A stretch of DNA of 22,775 nucleotides from positions 1 to 22,775 of the IMG/VR virus record IMGVR_UViG_3300031784_000206, one strand, 5' to 3'. The DNA comes from a virus. Both the position numbers and the translations under genes were made by a program. Positions 2,628-22,775 of this stretch are shown here, piece after piece; within the stretch, counting starts at the first letter, position 1; each line of letters begins with the position of its first letter. The notes below the pieces were generated by a model that saw only the letters and a program-made list of their open reading frames with translations, did no database searches and had not been told where the DNA came from.

Positions 2628-3623
2628 ATGGCAACATCAACAACACAAACACTGGAAGATGGTACAACCATACAATTTTTCGATGACGGTTCAACATTGG
2701 TGACCGACAATGAAGGAAATGTAAGTTCTTCACCGGCACCTAGTACCTCTTCACCCACAGAAAAACCAAAAGGTGTCCTTGCATGGACAGAACCAGAATC
2801 TGCTGCAAATAGTGATTATCAACCCGTATACCCATACAATACTATAACGCAGACAAAGGGTGGGCATTCATTCGAAATGGATGATACTCCAACAAGAGAA
2901 CGAATTCGCCTGCAACACAAATCTGGAACATTCACCGAGATACATCCAAACGGTGATGAAGTACACAAGATAATTAGAGATGGTTACCATATCGTATTAG
3001 GTGATCACAACATATCCATCGGTGTTGATGATGGACAATTAGCTAAAAAATTGAATATCACAGTTAATGGTGATGCATATTTCTATGTAAAAGGCAATAA
3101 AGTTGAACAGATTGACGGTAGTGTTGAACAGTATATTAAAGGCGATTATACGCAAACCGTACAAGGTATACACACAGTAACATCTTTCGGTAATATGAAG
3201 ATTAATGCGGGTTCTAATCCTGGGCTTGTTCCTGGGTTACAAAGTAAATTGACAATCAAAACATCTCTAGTAAACGTGAGTGGTGATCTTCAGGTTGAGC
3301 AAGCTTTATCCGGTGGTTATATTTTTTCTAAAGGAAGAGTGGATGCGTTTTTAGGTGTTGCTGCTGGACCATATGGTTTTCATTCTTTACTTGGTGGTAT
3401 TTCTATTGGGCTTCCAACACCAGCAATACCCGGTACTATAGTGTGTTCTGGACCAATAACCTCTTTTTCTAGTGTGTCTGCACCACTTGGAACTTATGGT
3501 ATCTCCTCTTCTTTACTGGGATTTGATGTGATCAATACATTAATAAGAAAACTTCACATACACATTTCAGGGAAACCAGGTACACCAACTTCGACATCAC
3601 CATCTAAAGAATTGAAAGCATAA
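2628..3623 (+). CDS. Beta-helix tail spike tip protein (gp5 C-terminal / VgrG-like)
   Basis: This 331-aa protein probably forms the membrane-piercing needle below the hub. Residues about 80-125 read HSFEMDDTPTRERIRLQHKS then GTFTEIHPNGDEV. This is the signature seen where gp5 and VgrG proteins enter the triple-stranded beta-helix (DTPG.ERI.L.H.SG...EI..DG). It continues with short strand repeats such as NITVNGDAYFYVKGNKVEQI and YIKGDYTQTVQGIHTVTSFG, as expected for an intertwined beta-prism. After a Gly/Pro/Ser-rich part (about 240-300) it ends in LHIHISGKPGTPTSTSPS, with H310 and H312 forming an HxH. Related spikes of P2 and Mu bind an iron ion at their apex through an HxH near the C-terminus. 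No OB-fold or lysozyme domain is present; the OB-fold is encoded at 1355-1705. The N-terminus has DGTTIQFFDDGSTLVTDNEG, a possible extra strand pair. Confidence 0.78.
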   Translation: MATSTTQTLEDGTTIQFFDDGSTLVTDNEGNVSSSPAPSTSSPTEKPKGVLAWTEPESAANSDYQPVYPYNTITQTKGGHSFEMDDTPTRERIRLQHKSGTFTEIHPNGDEVHKIIRDGYHIVLGDHNISIGVDDGQLAKKLNITVNGDAYFYVKGNKVEQIDGSVEQYIKGDYTQTVQGIHTVTSFGNMKINAGSNPGLVPGLQSKLTIKTSLVNVSGDLQVEQALSGGYIFSKGRVDAFLGVAAGPYGFHSLLGGISIGLPTPAIPGTIVCSGPITSFSSVSAPLGTYGISSSLLGFDVINTLIRKLHIHISGKPGTPTSTSPSKELKA

Positions 3624-3635
3624 AGGAAATATATT

Positions 3636-4481
3636 ATGGCTGGAGTATACGCTTTACTAGGATTCGATACAACTGATCCAATAGCTAATGGTGCTGTTGA
3701 GCAATTGAGCCCATCGGTTCAGACACAAATGAAAATGATGCCACAGTTATTACAACCATGGCAAGAAGCCGATTTAATATCGGATGAAGTTGAAGATTAT
3801 TATCTGAATCCTGTATCAAATACAATCAATGTTATCTGGTCAACATCAAACACAGTTACAAATCTATCATTTTCAAATGTTATCACAGGTACGATAAATG
3901 TAACATTCAGTAATCCTGGTGTTTCCAGTATTATGGATCCTGCACTCATGGTTGTAAGAGATATATCACAAAACATTGCAGGCAGTTTTATGATACACAC
4001 AGACAGAATATCGAATGTGGTACCATTAGATGTTGATATTGCTTCACCACATTATGAAACTGCAATTGGTTATGGTAAAATTATCATGTATATTGTCAAT
4101 CAAACTGATGATATACAGAACAACTCACCCATGATTGGTAGTTTTTCCAGTCTTTTTGTTGCGGATACGTTGTCCGATTACTCAAATACCTTCGTTTCAA
4201 TAACAAATGTCTATTTGGGTTCATTTGTTGGCAACGTTTCATCATTCAGTTTAACGGATGCTAATGAATTTGCAAATGCTGCAAATCAAGTTTCAAACAC
4301 AATGACGACATATAGACAGAAAGACTTTGATTTCTTTGCAAATTCACAAATGATTGTGGATAGGTATAATAAGGTTAGTGAATTCAATAGGATTGGTCAA
4401 ACAGAACTATTCCTCATTAATGATTACATCGGAACACCAAATCTGAAGAACAATTTGGCAAATACTGTTAACCCATCCTAA
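3636..4481 (+). CDS. Uncharacterised structural protein upstream of gp25
   Basis: I do not recognise this 281-aa protein. It starts MAGVYALLGFDTTDPIANGA, has a Met/Gln-rich stretch (about 25-42, QTQMKMMPQLLQPW), then a beta-rich middle of alternating Val/Ile/Ser/Thr/Asn (about 60-205, e.g. NVITGTINVTFSNPGVSSIM). It ends in a helical, polar tail containing DANEFANAANQVSNTMTTYRQKDFDFFANSQMIVDRYN. There are no cysteines, no signal peptide and no membrane segment. The start is well supported by AGGAAA about 8 bases upstream and by the preceding stop at 3621-3623. It closes the hub/spike group: the next gene follows only after the first sizeable intergenic region. By position it may be a hub accessory, tube-baseplate junction or wedge protein, but nothing in the sequence fixes this. 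Confidence 0.78.
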   Translation: MAGVYALLGFDTTDPIANGAVEQLSPSVQTQMKMMPQLLQPWQEADLISDEVEDYYLNPVSNTINVIWSTSNTVTNLSFSNVITGTINVTFSNPGVSSIMDPALMVVRDISQNIAGSFMIHTDRISNVVPLDVDIASPHYETAIGYGKIIMYIVNQTDDIQNNSPMIGSFSSLFVADTLSDYSNTFVSITNVYLGSFVGNVSSFSLTDANEFANAANQVSNTMTTYRQKDFDFFANSQMIVDRYNKVSEFNRIGQTELFLINDYIGTPNLKNNLANTVNPS

Positions 4482-4482
4482 A

Positions 4483-4518
4483 ATTTTGAAATTTTTCGTT
4501 CCGGCCCAAGAATTTTCT
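4483..4518 (+). promoter_or_regulatory. Conserved intergenic motif, copy 1 (core CGTTCCGGCCC)
   Basis: This sits just after the stop of the 281-aa gene. It matches 22731-22766 at about 27 of 36 positions without gaps, including an identical 11-base core at 4497-4507 and GAAAT at 4488-4492. The core is seen nowhere else in the window. In this copy GAAATTTTT (4488-4496) can pair with AAGAATTTTC (4508-4517) with one bulge and one G-T pair, leaving the 11-base core as the loop. That pairing is not kept in the second copy. Function is unknown: a terminator or RNA-processing site, a promoter element, or a protein-binding site are all possible. Confidence 0.55.
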
Positions 4519-4560
4519 CCGACGATATCAAAAGTCCAAAAAAGCGATTTACTTTTCGCA

Positions 4561-4568
4561 CATAAATA
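4561..4568 (+). promoter_or_regulatory. Possible T4-type late promoter element CATAAATA
   Basis: CATAAATA matches the NATAAATA consensus used for late promoters of T4-like cyanophages (T4 itself uses TATAAATA). It is 4 bases before the gp25 ATG, so a start site about 10 bases downstream of the element would fall inside the gene. The same string also occurs by chance inside coding regions (9490-9497 and 12455-12462). Support is therefore weak. Confidence 0.2.
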
Positions 4569-4572
4569 AAAG

Positions 4573-4968
4573 ATGGCACAAACACTAAACAAACTATATT
4601 CGGACATAGACTTCACCTTCACCAGAGTACCGGTGACAGGTGATGTTGCCGTTAGTTATGATTTTCAGGCTGTCACACGTTCCGTCAGAAATTTATTACA
4701 AACAAATAACTACGATAGACCTTTCAATCCTGATCTAGGTTCACAATTGAACGCATTATTGTTTGAACCTATGAGCCCTTTGACGGAAAACAGTATAGAA
4801 AATGAAATTGCTCAGATGATCCAGGCATATGAACCTAGAGTAATTTTGCAAAAAGTGAATGTGGAAGCAAATGATGCTCAAAATGCCTACAATGTGACAA
4901 TAAGTTTTTTCCTACAGAATGCTACCACACCAACATCAATAACAATCCTTTTAGAGAGAAACCGATAA
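4573..4968 (+). CDS. gp25: Baseplate wedge protein gp25
   Basis: This is a gp25-family protein, part of the wedge core that contacts gp6 and gp53 and helps start sheath assembly in T4. At 131 aa it is nearly the length of T4 gp25 (132 aa). The family hallmarks are visible: NYDRPFNPDLGSQLNALLFEP (residues 46-66), the helix ENSIENEIAQMIQAYEPRV (72-90) containing the invariant EPR (87-89), and the closing strands VNVEANDAQNAYNVTISFFL. The start is set by the ATG at 4573 after the intergenic region; the upstream sequence (AAAAG) is only a weak ribosome site. The stop codon is directly followed by the ATG of gp6 with no spacing, and gp25 next to gp6 is the conserved order in T4-like marine phages. 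Confidence 0.92.
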   Translation: MAQTLNKLYSDIDFTFTRVPVTGDVAVSYDFQAVTRSVRNLLQTNNYDRPFNPDLGSQLNALLFEPMSPLTENSIENEIAQMIQAYEPRVILQKVNVEANDAQNAYNVTISFFLQNATTPTSITILLERNR

Positions 4969-9856: not shown

Positions 9857-11269
9857 ATGTCAACAGTAAAAATTACAGAATTATCGTCAAAATCATTAAC
9901 AACAAACATTTCAAATACGATATTTGTTGGTGTAGATTTACCGACAGGTACAACAGGAAAGTATACAGCCAAAAACATGGCAGACAACCTGTATGCAAAT
10001 AATGCTTTGAATGTTGGTAGCGATTTCACATTACTGAGCAAACCAATCACATTCGCTGATGGCACAACACAGAATACTTCTTTTGCTGTGACTGGCACAT
10101 ATGCAAATGCTGCCTTCTTAAAGGCCAATTCAGCATATGACTCACAGAATACAACTGGAAACTATGCCAACTCTGCCTTCTTGGTAGCGAACACACCTTC
10201 ACATGTGGCAAACTCCGCTGCAATCTATGCTAATGGAGCATTCTTAGCCGCAAATACACCAACACATGTGGCCAATTCAGCCGCACTTTATGCTAACGGT
10301 GCTTTCGCAAAAGCAAACGCAGCACTAGCAAATGCATCAGGCACTTTTGCGGGTGATCTAACAATTACAGGCAATACTCAAGCACAAAAAGTTAACACAG
10401 GTAACTTAACTGTAGTCGGAACAGCTGCTGTATCAGGTAATGCAAACTTTTCAGGCATAGTGAATGTGACTGGTGCAGTTAACATGAACGCAACACTTGT
10501 TCTTGCTAACTCCAATTTTAGTGCATCTGAATCTGCGATAACAATACAGGCAACCGAAACTGTACAAGTTCCTTCGCAAGCAGGAACGATGTTGCACATT
10601 TCTGGAAAAGCAAACACTCCATCAAGAATTATTTTTGATTCTTTCAGTACCGATGGATCTGCATATTCGATAGTTGCAGGTAGAACTGCTAGAGGCACAG
10701 TGGTGTCACCATCTCCAACTCAAAACAATGACATTTTAATGAGAGTTGCTGGTAACGGATGGGGCACAACAGGTTTCGCACCACTCGGTGTTGCTCGCAT
10801 TGATATTGTTGCCACAGAAAACTATACAGATTCAGCTCGTGGTTCTAAAATCATTTTCTACAACGTTCCAAACGGTTCAAACGTAGTTAATCAAATCGCT
10901 TCATTCAATGCAGACCGTATTGATTTTACAGGTGTTGTGAGTCCAGAAAAAGGCTTCATCTACACACCTAGAATTTTGGGTGCTCAAACAGCAATCACTA
11001 TTGATTTTGCAAACGATTCAATGATTCGAACAACATATAGTTCAACACTCACAATCTCTTTCTCCAACTATACATACGGTAAAGTTGTTGAGTTGTGGGT
11101 CACAAACACAGCAGGCACCGGCCAAACAATAAACTTGGGTGTTCTAGCAAACAATTCAACAACAGGTTCAACCACACTTTCTGTAGCCTCACAGAGATCA
11201 GCAAAATTACAATATTTTAGTATTGATGGCGACCTGGCAAATACTTTCTGTGCAATAACATATGCGTAA
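9857..11269 (+). CDS. Fiber-like protein with YANGAF repeats
   Basis: This 470-aa protein has the architecture of a marine phage tail fiber. A short N-terminal part (1-45, MSTVKITELSSKSLTTNISN) resembles fiber attachment segments with a KITEL start. Residues about 80-160 hold repeats built from TYANAAFLKANSAYDSQN, NYANSAFLVANTPSHVANS and ALYANGAF, probably a fibrous trimer stalk. Strand-rich segments follow (GTFAGDLTITGNTQAQKVNT, GNLTVVGTAAVSGNANFSG). The C-terminal 110 residues (ILGAQTAITIDFANDSMIRT onwards) look like a globular head with the AITYA end. It lacks the ADLAEKY-type C-terminal domain found in the 892-aa fiber. About 60 bases at 10091-10150 are nearly identical to 21531-21590 in that gene. 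AGGA lies about 7 bases before the ATG. It sits between wedge genes, so it may be a short fiber or baseplate-attached fiber. Confidence 0.82.
   Translation: MSTVKITELSSKSLTTNISNTIFVGVDLPTGTTGKYTAKNMADNLYANNALNVGSDFTLLSKPITFADGTTQNTSFAVTGTYANAAFLKANSAYDSQNTTGNYANSAFLVANTPSHVANSAAIYANGAFLAANTPTHVANSAALYANGAFAKANAALANASGTFAGDLTITGNTQAQKVNTGNLTVVGTAAVSGNANFSGIVNVTGAVNMNATLVLANSNFSASESAITIQATETVQVPSQAGTMLHISGKANTPSRIIFDSFSTDGSAYSIVAGRTARGTVVSPSPTQNNDILMRVAGNGWGTTGFAPLGVARIDIVATENYTDSARGSKIIFYNVPNGSNVVNQIASFNADRIDFTGVVSPEKGFIYTPRILGAQTAITIDFANDSMIRTTYSSTLTISFSNYTYGKVVELWVTNTAGTGQTINLGVLANNSTTGSTTLSVASQRSAKLQYFSIDGDLANTFCAITYA
10091..10336 (+). repeat. YANGAF-type protein repeats in the 470-aa fiber
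   Basis: Four to five imperfect copies of a roughly 20-residue unit built around YAN(A/G/S)AF followed by (K/L/V)AN. The first 60 bases are copied almost exactly in the other fiber gene, at 21531-21590, with 4 differences that are all synonymous C/T changes at third codon positions. Confidence 0.75.
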
Positions 11270-17744: not shown

Positions 17745-18194
17745 ATGGGACTAAGTGTAGCTGATTATTTCGCACAAAAGGAGGCCTGTGCCTCCTGTGT
17801 GGACCATGGCACAGAAGAACACTGTGTTACCACTTTATTGAGCAGAAAAGAAAACTGTTTTGTTTATAGTATCATACACAATCAGATAGGTGAATATAAA
17901 CAACATGAGATCGAACTTCTCAGAAAAATGAGGGAAGAGAGTTCAGAAGAAGAAAACGTAATTTATTATGTTAGAGGTGAAAATATAATTGAAAAGATGG
18001 ACCTAATGAATAAACCTTTCTACGAACAGGTTTCTATTTTCAGTTATATAAATTACAAATATATTAAAAGTGTTGTCGAAGCATTAGTTCAAAAAAGAAC
18101 AGAAGATGCAAAACGTCTAATAAATACTATGTTAGAAGTTCTTGAAAAAGAGAATAACATACCGAAGGAATTAAATGAGTTCAAGTACTATTGA
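17745..18194 (+). CDS. Small Cys/His-rich protein of unknown function
   Basis: I do not recognise this 149-aa protein. Near the N-terminus it has C15-x2-C18-x2-H21-x4-H26-C27, with C38 further on, which could bind a metal such as zinc; this is inference from spacing. The remainder is highly charged and mostly helical (EYKQHEIELLRKMREESSEE, VVEALVQKRTEDAKRLINTM), without the Asn/Thr-rich style of the surrounding structural proteins. It starts 3 bases after the giant gene, with no clear ribosome site, and overlaps the next gene by 20 bases. A 7-bp GC-rich hairpin lies within its first 52 bases (17779-17796). Its two neighbours look like parts of one protein family in relatives, so this gene may be an insertion, an assembly factor or a small virion component. 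Wild-type function cannot be stated from sequence. Confidence 0.8.
   Translation: MGLSVADYFAQKEACASCVDHGTEEHCVTTLLSRKENCFVYSIIHNQIGEYKQHEIELLRKMREESSEEENVIYYVRGENIIEKMDLMNKPFYEQVSIFSYINYKYIKSVVEALVQKRTEDAKRLINTMLEVLEKENNIPKELNEFKYY
17779..17796 (+). other. GC-rich hairpin with embedded Shine-Dalgarno-like AGGAGG
   Basis: AGGAGGC (17779-17785) and GCCTCCT (17790-17796) pair perfectly around a CTGT tetraloop. It lies within the coding start of the 149-aa gene and encodes part of the KEACASC region, so codon needs explain some of it. AAGGAGG would be a strong ribosome site, but no good start codon is correctly spaced after it: the ATG at 17806 is about 20 bases away and opens only an 11-codon frame. 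Confidence 0.4.
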
Positions 18195-19831: not shown

Positions 19832-20059
19832 ATGTTGGTCAAAGTAGAAGGCACAAATCTGTATCGCGATACGGAAACTATGGCTTTAATTAATAGAGAC
19901 ACAAAAGAAAAAAACGATTACGTAATGAAGTCTCGTTTAATTAAGAACCAAAAAGATCAAATAAATACCGTCAAAGAAGAAATAGAAGTCATCAAAGGTG
20001 AAATGTCTGAGATTAAACAATTGATGATAAAACTACTCGAAAAAGGTTCAAATGGCTAA
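19832..20059 (+). CDS. Small coiled-coil protein, marine T4-like phage type
   Basis: The 75-aa product begins MLVKVEGTNLYRDTETMALI then NRDTKEKNDYV, and ends in a Lys/Glu/Ile-rich coiled coil (about 30-70: IKNQKDQINTVKEEIEVIKG, EMSEIKQLMIKLLEK). Short proteins of this design (KVEG.....RD..T.A.IN.D then a coiled coil) are common in structural regions of T4-like marine phages; their function is unknown to me. An earlier in-frame ATG at 19802 would add 10 residues inside the preceding gene (MLCRQEQDYK). I prefer 19832 because it leaves a conventional start 1 base after the previous stop, with GGA about 9 bases upstream, and because the N-terminus then matches the family. It overlaps the fiber gene by 8 bases, so translation of the two is probably coupled. 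A fiber-assembly or attachment role is possible but unproven. Confidence 0.8.
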   Translation: MLVKVEGTNLYRDTETMALINRDTKEKNDYVMKSRLIKNQKDQINTVKEEIEVIKGEMSEIKQLMIKLLEKGSNG

Positions 20060-22730
20060 TACAGTTACATCGTTAAGTTACGCCAATACGTTTGGTGAAT
20101 GGGTTGTTGCGACAAATAATCTTATTAGAGAAAATAATGATCTTGCGGCAAACGACTATGTTAAAAGCACAGGTACACTTTACCTAAACGAAACAACACA
20201 AAACGCACTTCAGTCAAACGGTACTGTAGTTATTCAGAAACAGTTACTTGTACAAGGTACAGGTTCGTCCGCAACTGTACAGAACAATTTGAACGTTGGT
20301 AGCCAGTTATATTTAACAAATGCATCTTTAAGTTTAGTTGCATCTGGTCAAGCAAACGTTGCTGGGCAGATTAACGGGCAAGCTTCTGGTATTGGTCTGT
20401 TCATTGCAAACAATGCACATATTGGCGGCACCACAGTTTCTGCGGTAAGGATTACGACAGGTATCTTGCAAGCAAACTCTTCTGTTAACACATCGAACGC
20501 TTCAATTGTTAACACAGTATTCACCAAAGATTTACAGGCAAACTCTACAGTTAACACAGCAACCGCTTCTGTAACTGGTACTACATTTACTAACGTATTA
20601 CAAGCCAACACATCAACAAATACAATTACTGCTTCGATTGTTGGGACAACATATACTGACATTTTACAAGCAAACACTTCTGCAACAGTTGGTACATTAC
20701 AAGCTAACACATCGACAAATACCGCAACGGCTTCTGTAACTGGTACAACATTTACTAACGTATTACAAGCCAATACTTCTACAAATACTGCAACCGCATC
20801 TGTAACAGGTACGTCATTCACGAATGTTTTACAGGCAAACACTTCTGTTAACACTTCGACTGCTTCTATAACAGGTACAACACTAACTGGTGTTTTACAA
20901 GCAAACACCTCCCTTAATACAGCTGTAGCTTCTATAACTGGCACAGTATTCACCAACGTATTGCAAGCCAATAGTTCGTTATTTGTTCCATTAGCAAACA
21001 TAACAACAGCAAACATAACAACAGCAAACATAACAACAGCAAATGCAGATACGGTTGTTGTGAGAAATTTGTTAAATGGTAATACTTGTGCAGCATTTTT
21101 TAATAGCTTACAAATATTAAGTGGTGGTCTAACTGTCAACGGAAACTTTGTTCTTACTGGCACAACCGTTTATGCGTCAAACACATTTGTATTATCTTCT
21201 AATGTAAATTCAGCGATTTCAAGTTACTACAATGTTGATAGAGGATCCACAGGTGTTGATGCTTCATTCCGTTGGAATGAGACTTCAAAGTATTGGGACA
21301 TGTTAAATGTCACATCAAACACATATTATCGTATACTGACTGATGAATATTTCGATGACACACTAACATCTACTAGCACAACATCTGTTGCAACTGCAAA
21401 TGCAGCCAATGCATTAAACAATCTTTTAAATACAGCAAACACATTCTTACAGAGCGGCATCAGTTCTTCAGGATTGTATGCGAACGGAGCATTCTTAAGA
21501 GCTAATGCAGCATATGGTTCTCAAAATACTACTGGTACATATGCAAATGCTGCTTTCTTAAAGGCCAATTCAGCATATGATTCACAGAACGTTACTGGTA
21601 CATATGCAAACTCAGCTTATGCACAGGCAAACACAGCAACAAACAACGCAGCTGGCGCATCATTGTATGCTAATGGTGCTTTTGTTCAAGCAAATGCTGG
21701 TTATACACAAGCGAATACTGCCACCAATAATGCGGCTGGCGCATCACTATATGCGAATGGTGCATTCATCCAAGCTAATGCAGCATTCTTAAGAGCTAAC
21801 ACTCCAGATGCTATAGCCAATTCAGCTGCATTGTATGCCAACGGCGCATTTACACAATCGAATGCGGCTTACTCACAAGCAAACACAGCTACAAATAATG
21901 CAGCTGGTGCATCACTTTATGCCAATGGTGCTTTTATACAAGCAAATGCTGCATTCTTAAGAGCCAATACACCAGATGCTATAGCCAATTCAGCTGCATT
22001 GTATGCTAACGGGGCTTTTGTACAAGCGAATGCGGCTTTCGGAACAGCTAACAGTGCAGCAAACGCAAGTAATCTTACAAGTGGTACTGTTCCTCTTGCT
22101 AGACTAAGTGGCATAACAAACAATCAAATTAGTACATCTGCTAATATTACAAATACACAACTGTTAAATAGCACAATTTCTGGTGTTAGTTTGGGTGGTA
22201 CTTTAGCTTCACACTCCGTTGGAAGTTACCTGCTAGGTGATGCATACAATGGTAGCACATCTAGATCATGGGCTGTCGATGCGACAACCACAAACACAGC
22301 AAACAAAATTGCAGCAAGAGATGGTTCCGGTGACATATATGCAACAGTCTTTAGGGGACTGGCAACCAGTGCCAACTACGCCGACTTGGCAGAAAAGTAC
22401 ACAACACCTGAAGTCTATCCAGTTGGTACAGTTGTTGTTATCAACACGGGTGATGAATCTGAAGGCATCAAATCTTCTGGTATCTCCCAATTGGTACTGG
22501 GTGTTGTGTCCGAAAAGCCAGCATTCTTGATGAACACAGATGCACCAGGTCAACCACTCGCACTACGTGGAAGAGTTCCTGTCCGCGTAAGAGGTCCAGT
22601 GAAAAAAGGTCAAACTCTGGTTTCATTCAGTGGTGGCACAGCCACTGTTGGTGATGTGAATAGATTTGCTCAGGCATTAGAAACCAATCTCAGTGAAGAA
22701 GAGAAATTGGTAGAGGCAGTGATTTTATAA
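20052..22730 (+). CDS. Tail fiber protein with two repeat arrays
   Basis: This 892-aa protein is a probable host-contacting tail fiber. The N-terminus (SLSYANTFGEWVVATNNLIR then ENNDL, about 6-30) matches the attachment segment of marine phage fibers. Residues about 139-312 are seven full 22-aa units starting LQAN, one exact half unit, and a partial unit. Then come three NITTA repeats (316-330). Residues about 375-440 (YYNVDRGSTGVDASFRWNET then SKYWDMLNVTSNTYYRI) form a beta domain common in such fibers. Residues about 475-672 hold YANGAF/QAN repeats related to the 470-aa fiber. The C-terminus (GSGDIYATVFRGLATSANYA then DLAEKYTTPEVYPVGTVVVI, with LRGRVPVRVRGPVKKGQTLV) is the DLAEKY-type fiber-tip domain. 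AAGG about 8 bases upstream supports the start, and it overlaps the previous gene by 8 bases. Confidence 0.9.
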   Translation: MANTVTSLSYANTFGEWVVATNNLIRENNDLAANDYVKSTGTLYLNETTQNALQSNGTVVIQKQLLVQGTGSSATVQNNLNVGSQLYLTNASLSLVASGQANVAGQINGQASGIGLFIANNAHIGGTTVSAVRITTGILQANSSVNTSNASIVNTVFTKDLQANSTVNTATASVTGTTFTNVLQANTSTNTITASIVGTTYTDILQANTSATVGTLQANTSTNTATASVTGTTFTNVLQANTSTNTATASVTGTSFTNVLQANTSVNTSTASITGTTLTGVLQANTSLNTAVASITGTVFTNVLQANSSLFVPLANITTANITTANITTANADTVVVRNLLNGNTCAAFFNSLQILSGGLTVNGNFVLTGTTVYASNTFVLSSNVNSAISSYYNVDRGSTGVDASFRWNETSKYWDMLNVTSNTYYRILTDEYFDDTLTSTSTTSVATANAANALNNLLNTANTFLQSGISSSGLYANGAFLRANAAYGSQNTTGTYANAAFLKANSAYDSQNVTGTYANSAYAQANTATNNAAGASLYANGAFVQANAGYTQANTATNNAAGASLYANGAFIQANAAFLRANTPDAIANSAALYANGAFTQSNAAYSQANTATNNAAGASLYANGAFIQANAAFLRANTPDAIANSAALYANGAFVQANAAFGTANSAANASNLTSGTVPLARLSGITNNQISTSANITNTQLLNSTISGVSLGGTLASHSVGSYLLGDAYNGSTSRSWAVDATTTNTANKIAARDGSGDIYATVFRGLATSANYADLAEKYTTPEVYPVGTVVVINTGDESEGIKSSGISQLVLGVVSEKPAFLMNTDAPGQPLALRGRVPVRVRGPVKKGQTLVSFSGGTATVGDVNRFAQALETNLSEEEKLVEAVIL
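20466..20996 (+). repeat. 66-base (22-aa) tandem repeats with one 33-base half unit
   Basis: Units begin LQAN at 20466, 20532, 20598, 20664, 20697, 20763, 20829, 20895 and 20961. Spacing is exactly 66 bases except 20664 to 20697, which is 33. Typical unit pattern: LQANTSTNTATASV then TGTTFTNV. The last unit is truncated and runs into the NITTA repeats. Confidence 0.9.
20997..21041 (+). repeat. Three exact 15-base tandem repeats (NITTA)
   Basis: Three identical copies of AACATAACAACAGCA, at 20997-21011, 21012-21026 and 21027-21041, encode NITTA three times in frame. Identity down to third codon positions points to recent slippage or duplication. Confidence 0.95.
21474..22070 (+). repeat. YANGAF/QAN repeat array with 168-base duplicated unit
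   Basis: Two 56-aa units, 21702-21869 and 21870-22037, differ at 3 residues. A half unit of 28 aa (21618-21701) precedes them. Each is built from ANTATNNAAGASLYANGAF, (I/V)QANAAFLRANTPD and AIANSAALYANGAF. The array start (21531-21590) nearly duplicates 10091-10150 in the 470-aa fiber gene. Confidence 0.88.
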
Positions 22731-22766
22731 ATTTCGAAATCCTGCGTTCCGGCCCGAAAAAAATCT
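22731..22766 (+). promoter_or_regulatory. Conserved intergenic motif, copy 2 (core CGTTCCGGCCC)
   Basis: This begins directly after the fiber stop codon. GAAAT (22736-22740) and the core (22745-22755) have the same spacing as in copy 1 (4488-4492 and 4497-4507). It starts with the 10-base palindrome ATTTCGAAAT. The core is followed by an A-run (22757-22763). The window ends 9 bases later, so what it controls downstream is not visible. The hairpin possible in copy 1 does not form here. Confidence 0.55.
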
Positions 22767-22775
22767 TGATGAGTT

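Follow-up and report, generated by a model that had tools for sequence, protein, structure and literature searches.

A 75-bp bipartite element behind stop codons in metagenomic relatives of phage T4, and its possible role at the ends of late transcription units

Two copies of a repeat in a late structural region

The window, by which we mean the whole stretch analysed, covers an entire virus record (22,775 bases) and encodes T4-like proteins of the baseplate and tail. Among them, the gp5-type baseplate hub looks split—an N-terminal part at 1355-1705 (phrog_694/430) and a C-terminal part at 2628-3623 (phrog_430)—with a 302-aa gene in between and no lysozyme domain seen. According to the ORF list, only two gaps between likely genes exceed 15 bases, at 4482-4572 and from 22731 to the end, in agreement with an earlier note made from the sequence alone, and both hold the same repeat. 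Its core, CGTTCCGGCCC, lies on the plus strand at 4497-4507 and 22745-22755; these are the two exact matches in the whole window, and no third site appeared even with up to two mismatches allowed, so that the claimed uniqueness of the core holds. The two 36-mers first recognised are identical at 27 of 36 positions. A held-out profile of 43 positions, built from other phages' copies only, with window-like copies excluded, gave 55.0 bits at 4481 and 41.8 bits at 22729, against a maximum of 10.7 bits in 200 dinucleotide shuffles searched on both strands, confirming the repeat in both sizeable gaps.

The 36 bases originally proposed as the unit proved an underestimate, being the left part of a 75-bp bipartite element. 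Copy 1 occupies 4481-4555 (+), where our sequence model R1 matched 4481-4554 (E 1.5e-19) and the held-out profile at full length scored 81.3 bits, compared with -1.9 or less in 200 shuffles. Its conservation profile delimits block A (AAATTTTGAAATTTTTCGTTCCGGCCCA, 4481-4508, +), which includes the core; a middle (4509-4535, +) variable in sequence and nearly fixed in length; and a conserved block B (CCAAAAAAGCGATTTACTTT, 4536-4555, +). Upstream, the TAA stop at 4479-4481 (+) ends the ORF at 3636-4481, and the element opens with the final A of that codon. Downstream lie a candidate T4-like late promoter recognised by its sequence, CATAAATA (4561-4568, +), 5 bases 5' of the ATG of gene 25, and gene 25 itself, which encodes a baseplate wedge subunit (4573-4968, +; phrog_261, E 1.4e-43). 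Copy 2 (22729-22775, +) overlaps the TAA stop (22728-22730, +) of a tail-fibre-like gene at 20052-22730 and, the window being the complete record, is cut by the contig end, leaving block A plus the first part of the middle (R1 match 22729-22771, E 3.2e-9); a whole version is present in a relative (L021/L236; G022:18375-18448, R1 E 2.2e-15). The earlier placement of both copies a few bases after a stop codon stands as to the abutment, but the element begins 2 bases earlier, on an A-run shared with the TAA.

Conservation of the element across viral contigs

We searched viral contigs for GAAAT-N4-CGTTCCGGCCC, as the earlier note had proposed for related genomes, and obtained 64 loci. About 10 of them (e.g. 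L005, L017, L028, and L060) were GC-rich chance matches, dismissed on context, and the remainder were AT-rich phage contigs carrying the same longer element. Pattern scans, together with a set gathered through the gene 25 protein instead of the element, yielded distinct 75-mers (n = 125) from viral contigs. The end of the upstream coding sequence is almost unconserved, at about 0.1-0.3 bits per base, whereas the element blocks reach 1.2-1.8; the middle drops to 0.3-0.7 bits at element positions 35-50. The consensus of block A is AAA(A/T)TTCGAAATTTT(G/T)CGTTCCGGCCC and that of block B CCAAAAAGCGATTTTACTCC. Invariance of the core among loci retrieved by a core search is partly a selection effect; variants such as CATTCCAG, GATTCCGG, and CGTTTTGA turn up among loci chosen by their gene 25 protein. 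Block A was present, at the same distance, in 18 of 18 contigs retrieved via block B alone, and in a search that permitted gaps of 25-50 between the blocks, 32 of 33 matches had equal spacing, the other being one base longer. A seemingly open reading frame (KIRNFAFRPKNF...) is interrupted by stops in several copies and has no start, and every frame is stopped in some copies, leading us to reject a protein-coding role. At the start of one contig, an inverted partial core precedes the element (L109:1-60), possibly an assembly artefact.

Blastn found no close relative of the element in cultured phages, nor did the sequence model find it in four cultured relatives (HTVC008M, Melnitz, Mosig, and BUCT-ZZ01); the exact consensus was not matched in bacterial genome contigs, and we found no description of the motif in the literature on T4-like operons. 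So far the element has been found solely in metagenomic relatives of phage T4. One of these, a 157-kb contig (G001), encodes a permuted-type tmRNA with the tag ANDEKFALAA (L245:10646-11062), and 28 tRNAs were noted at L250; the two-piece tmRNA may point to a betaproteobacterial host.

Addresses in phage genomes

Copies detected by the sequence model number 1-3 per contig and occupy two main addresses—5' of gene 25, and behind the tail-fibre cluster 17-19 kb downstream. Same-strand pairs approximately 17-18.5 kb apart were found in the window, G001, G010, G013, and G021, while G003 and G012 carry the tail-fibre-end copy and no gene 25 copy. Restricted to phages and, in relatives, again bordering the ~18 kb late structural block, the repeat behaves as the dedicated phage element that had been suspected. 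Its orientation is always that of the surrounding genes, and 102 of the 125 copies have an upstream stop codon between positions -9 and +3 relative to where the element starts. Among 59 distinct gene 25 upstream regions, 9 have no element, the stop codon there abutting the late promoter; the element is therefore dispensable at gene 25. The gene ahead of the second address is not constant (a fibre with a C-terminal chaperone-like tail, a fibre-assembly-like gene, and others); behind it comes either a member of a single conserved family akin to phrog_1084/phrog_3304 or, for the window type, a cupin-like gene. At a third address, block A stands behind an accessory gene cluster, beside a hairpin and U-run in L287, with related forms elsewhere; here the element can be read as a common C-terminal tail of different genes. 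In L270, L260, L287, and L290, the tail PGKxFESSxSGPxNK is found on unrelated genes, as if fused to a shared 3' module.

In favour of a replication origin, packaging site, or other site of DNA metabolism are the low copy number of the element (1-3 per genome) and its AT-rich blocks with the internal palindrome AAATTTCGAAATTT. We regard such a role as very improbable, given that orientation and position track stop codons, that genomes can hold two or more copies, and that relatives lack the element.

Turnover of the genes upstream

We compared the genes adjoining the element by protein family; ungapped upstream identity is misleading if the stop offset shifts. At least 15 unrelated families lie upstream and 3 downstream, and 53 pairs of copies are at least 90% identical yet follow unrelated upstream proteins. 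This strong link to swapped upstream genes had not been anticipated in the earlier note. The ORF at 3636-4481 and its replacements terminate at copy 1; this ORF and those at 9857-11269 and 17745-18194 have no PHROG match.

That the element survives amid upstream gene change suggests, as far as sequence comparison goes, a homologous joint in module exchange, since no other DNA between the swapped genes is conserved. It could even be mainly such a joint, a linker valued as homology for exchange of tail-fibre and baseplate accessory genes, a view favoured by near-identical elements beside unrelated genes, by gene 25 regions that either carry the element or cleanly lack it, and by the way in which different genes at the third address are joined to a single 3' module. 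We consider this improbable as the main function: a joint does not need a fixed bipartite geometry with kept blocks and a free middle, and two direct copies per genome risk deletion.

Relationship to the late promoter

The T4 late promoter is TATAAATA, and a close match stands just 3' of most element copies—TAAATA, the only promoter motif covered by our systematic search at the element, follows 122 of the 125 copies at a distance of 4-21 bp. Because this spacing varies, the element is not part of the promoter but a separate entity, missing at most late promoters. Relatives of window-type copy 2 have no TAAATA, and the remaining late promoters of G001 stand without the element. Scanning the G001 region for sigma-70 promoters yielded 76 sites against 74 expected, the chance level. 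The earlier preference for a 3'-end role over a promoter holds in that the element starts at stops whatever the upstream gene, but the close late-promoter-like TAAATA behind most copies makes the site a composite of 3' element and promoter.

This proximity raises another explanation, namely an upstream control site where a phage or host protein bound to both blocks would activate or repress the nearby late promoter. The near-constant presence of TAAATA, the fixed block spacing, which fits protein-bound DNA, and the few, conserved downstream genes agree with it. We nonetheless think it unlikely, as the distance to TAAATA shows no clear helical phasing, the motif is absent in the window-type copy 2 relatives, other late promoters manage without the element, and the element start is bound to a stop codon.

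RNA structure and termination signals

The earlier note had also raised an RNA-processing element and proposed a check for covariation in homologous copies. Across 51 sequences RNAalifold found zero shared pairs; in a helix scan of the copies no helix beat column independence; mutual information across copies revealed no shared helix; and per-sequence folding gave a mean z of 0.00 with no common helix. No Rfam family exceeded its gathering threshold. With neither a conserved fold nor covariation found among the copies, we do not favour an RNA-processing hairpin. Helices drawn by eye (UUUUG/CAAAA replaced by UCCUG/CAGGA, a T-loop-like UUCRA, and CGCUUU/AAAGCG) fit some copies and break in others, and were discarded.

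A structured RNA in the 3' UTR—riboswitch-like, a processing hairpin, or an RNA-protein site—would find some encouragement in single copies that form long helices (L055, L162, and L010) and in pairing between middle and flanks that is stronger than in shuffled sequences (z -5.6 on the plus strand and -9.3 on the minus strand) and than with exchanged middles (z about -3 on either strand). Against this stand the negative fold, helix, and Rfam results, the lack of any effect of column permutation, and the occurrence of the weak complementarity on both strands, meaning that the transcribed strand is not singled out. We judge a structured RNA quite improbable.

Like intrinsic terminators, the element sits behind a stop codon at the end of a unit and is T-rich in its 3' part; unlike them, it has no conserved hairpin ahead of a T-run. 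A GC-rich hairpin with an immediate U-run was not found at the main addresses, the third address alone having both, and a terminator pattern scan at the G001 copy made no call. An ordinary hairpin-U terminator does occur elsewhere, at G010 2025-2095.

Discussion

We propose that the 75-bp phage-specific bipartite element ends late transcription units, probably in a protein-dependent manner, and doubles as a joint for module exchange; we put the probability of this combined reading at roughly 0.45. The message-end role is suggested by stop-codon abutment, constant strand, and position at unit edges. An element behind a unit's last gene would end that late message, and the late promoter behind it would launch the next, separating hub genes, then gene 25 to the tail fibres, then the genes that follow. 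Action through a protein seems most likely because there are two blocks at fixed spacing and no conserved hairpin with a U-tract; such a protein, on DNA or nascent RNA, might work by factor-dependent termination, as a roadblock, or in 3' processing. At the same time, the element would serve homologous exchange of modules. What we observe directly is the sequence, its geometry, addresses, and strand, the abutment to stop codons, and the turnover of upstream genes; from these we infer that transcripts end or are processed at the element, that a protein binds it, and that recombination makes use of it. Recurrence of block A behind an accessory gene cluster, at the third address and beside a hairpin and U-run, supports the boundary function. 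Arguing against it are the hairpin-U terminator in G010, which would make a special terminator an extra device, and the absences described above at other G001 late promoters and in 9/59 gene 25 regions.

The closest known parallel is the promoter early stem-loop (PeSL), which Arbiol (2010) and Comeau (2014) are said to have described as composite promoter-terminator cassettes of T4-like phages. A later article cites promoter early stem loops as composite promoter-terminator motifs that mediate gene shuffling (PMC4503421). As far as that account goes, our element resembles them as a short intergenic cassette of T4-like phages that couples a gene end to the next gene's promoter and lies where genes are shuffled. 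It differs in its late-type promoter (TAAATA), in having no conserved stem-loop by RNAalifold or helix scan, and in its fixed bipartite geometry, few copies, and set addresses. Given the failed stem-loop test and the late-type promoter, we read the element as a late-gene counterpart and variant of the PeSL cassettes, not a member. It is also conceivable, if doubtful, that it represents an undescribed protein-dependent boundary element, built of two blocks at fixed spacing and served by a phage factor of its own, which would set it apart from intrinsic, Rho-dependent, and PeSL sites.

Little is understood of how late operons end in T4-like phages, or of how modules for tail fibres and baseplates can be exchanged while gene expression stays intact. 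The element offers a concrete site for studying late termination, processing, and modular exchange across many environmental phages, and it flags the borders of host-recognition genes in metagenomic contigs.
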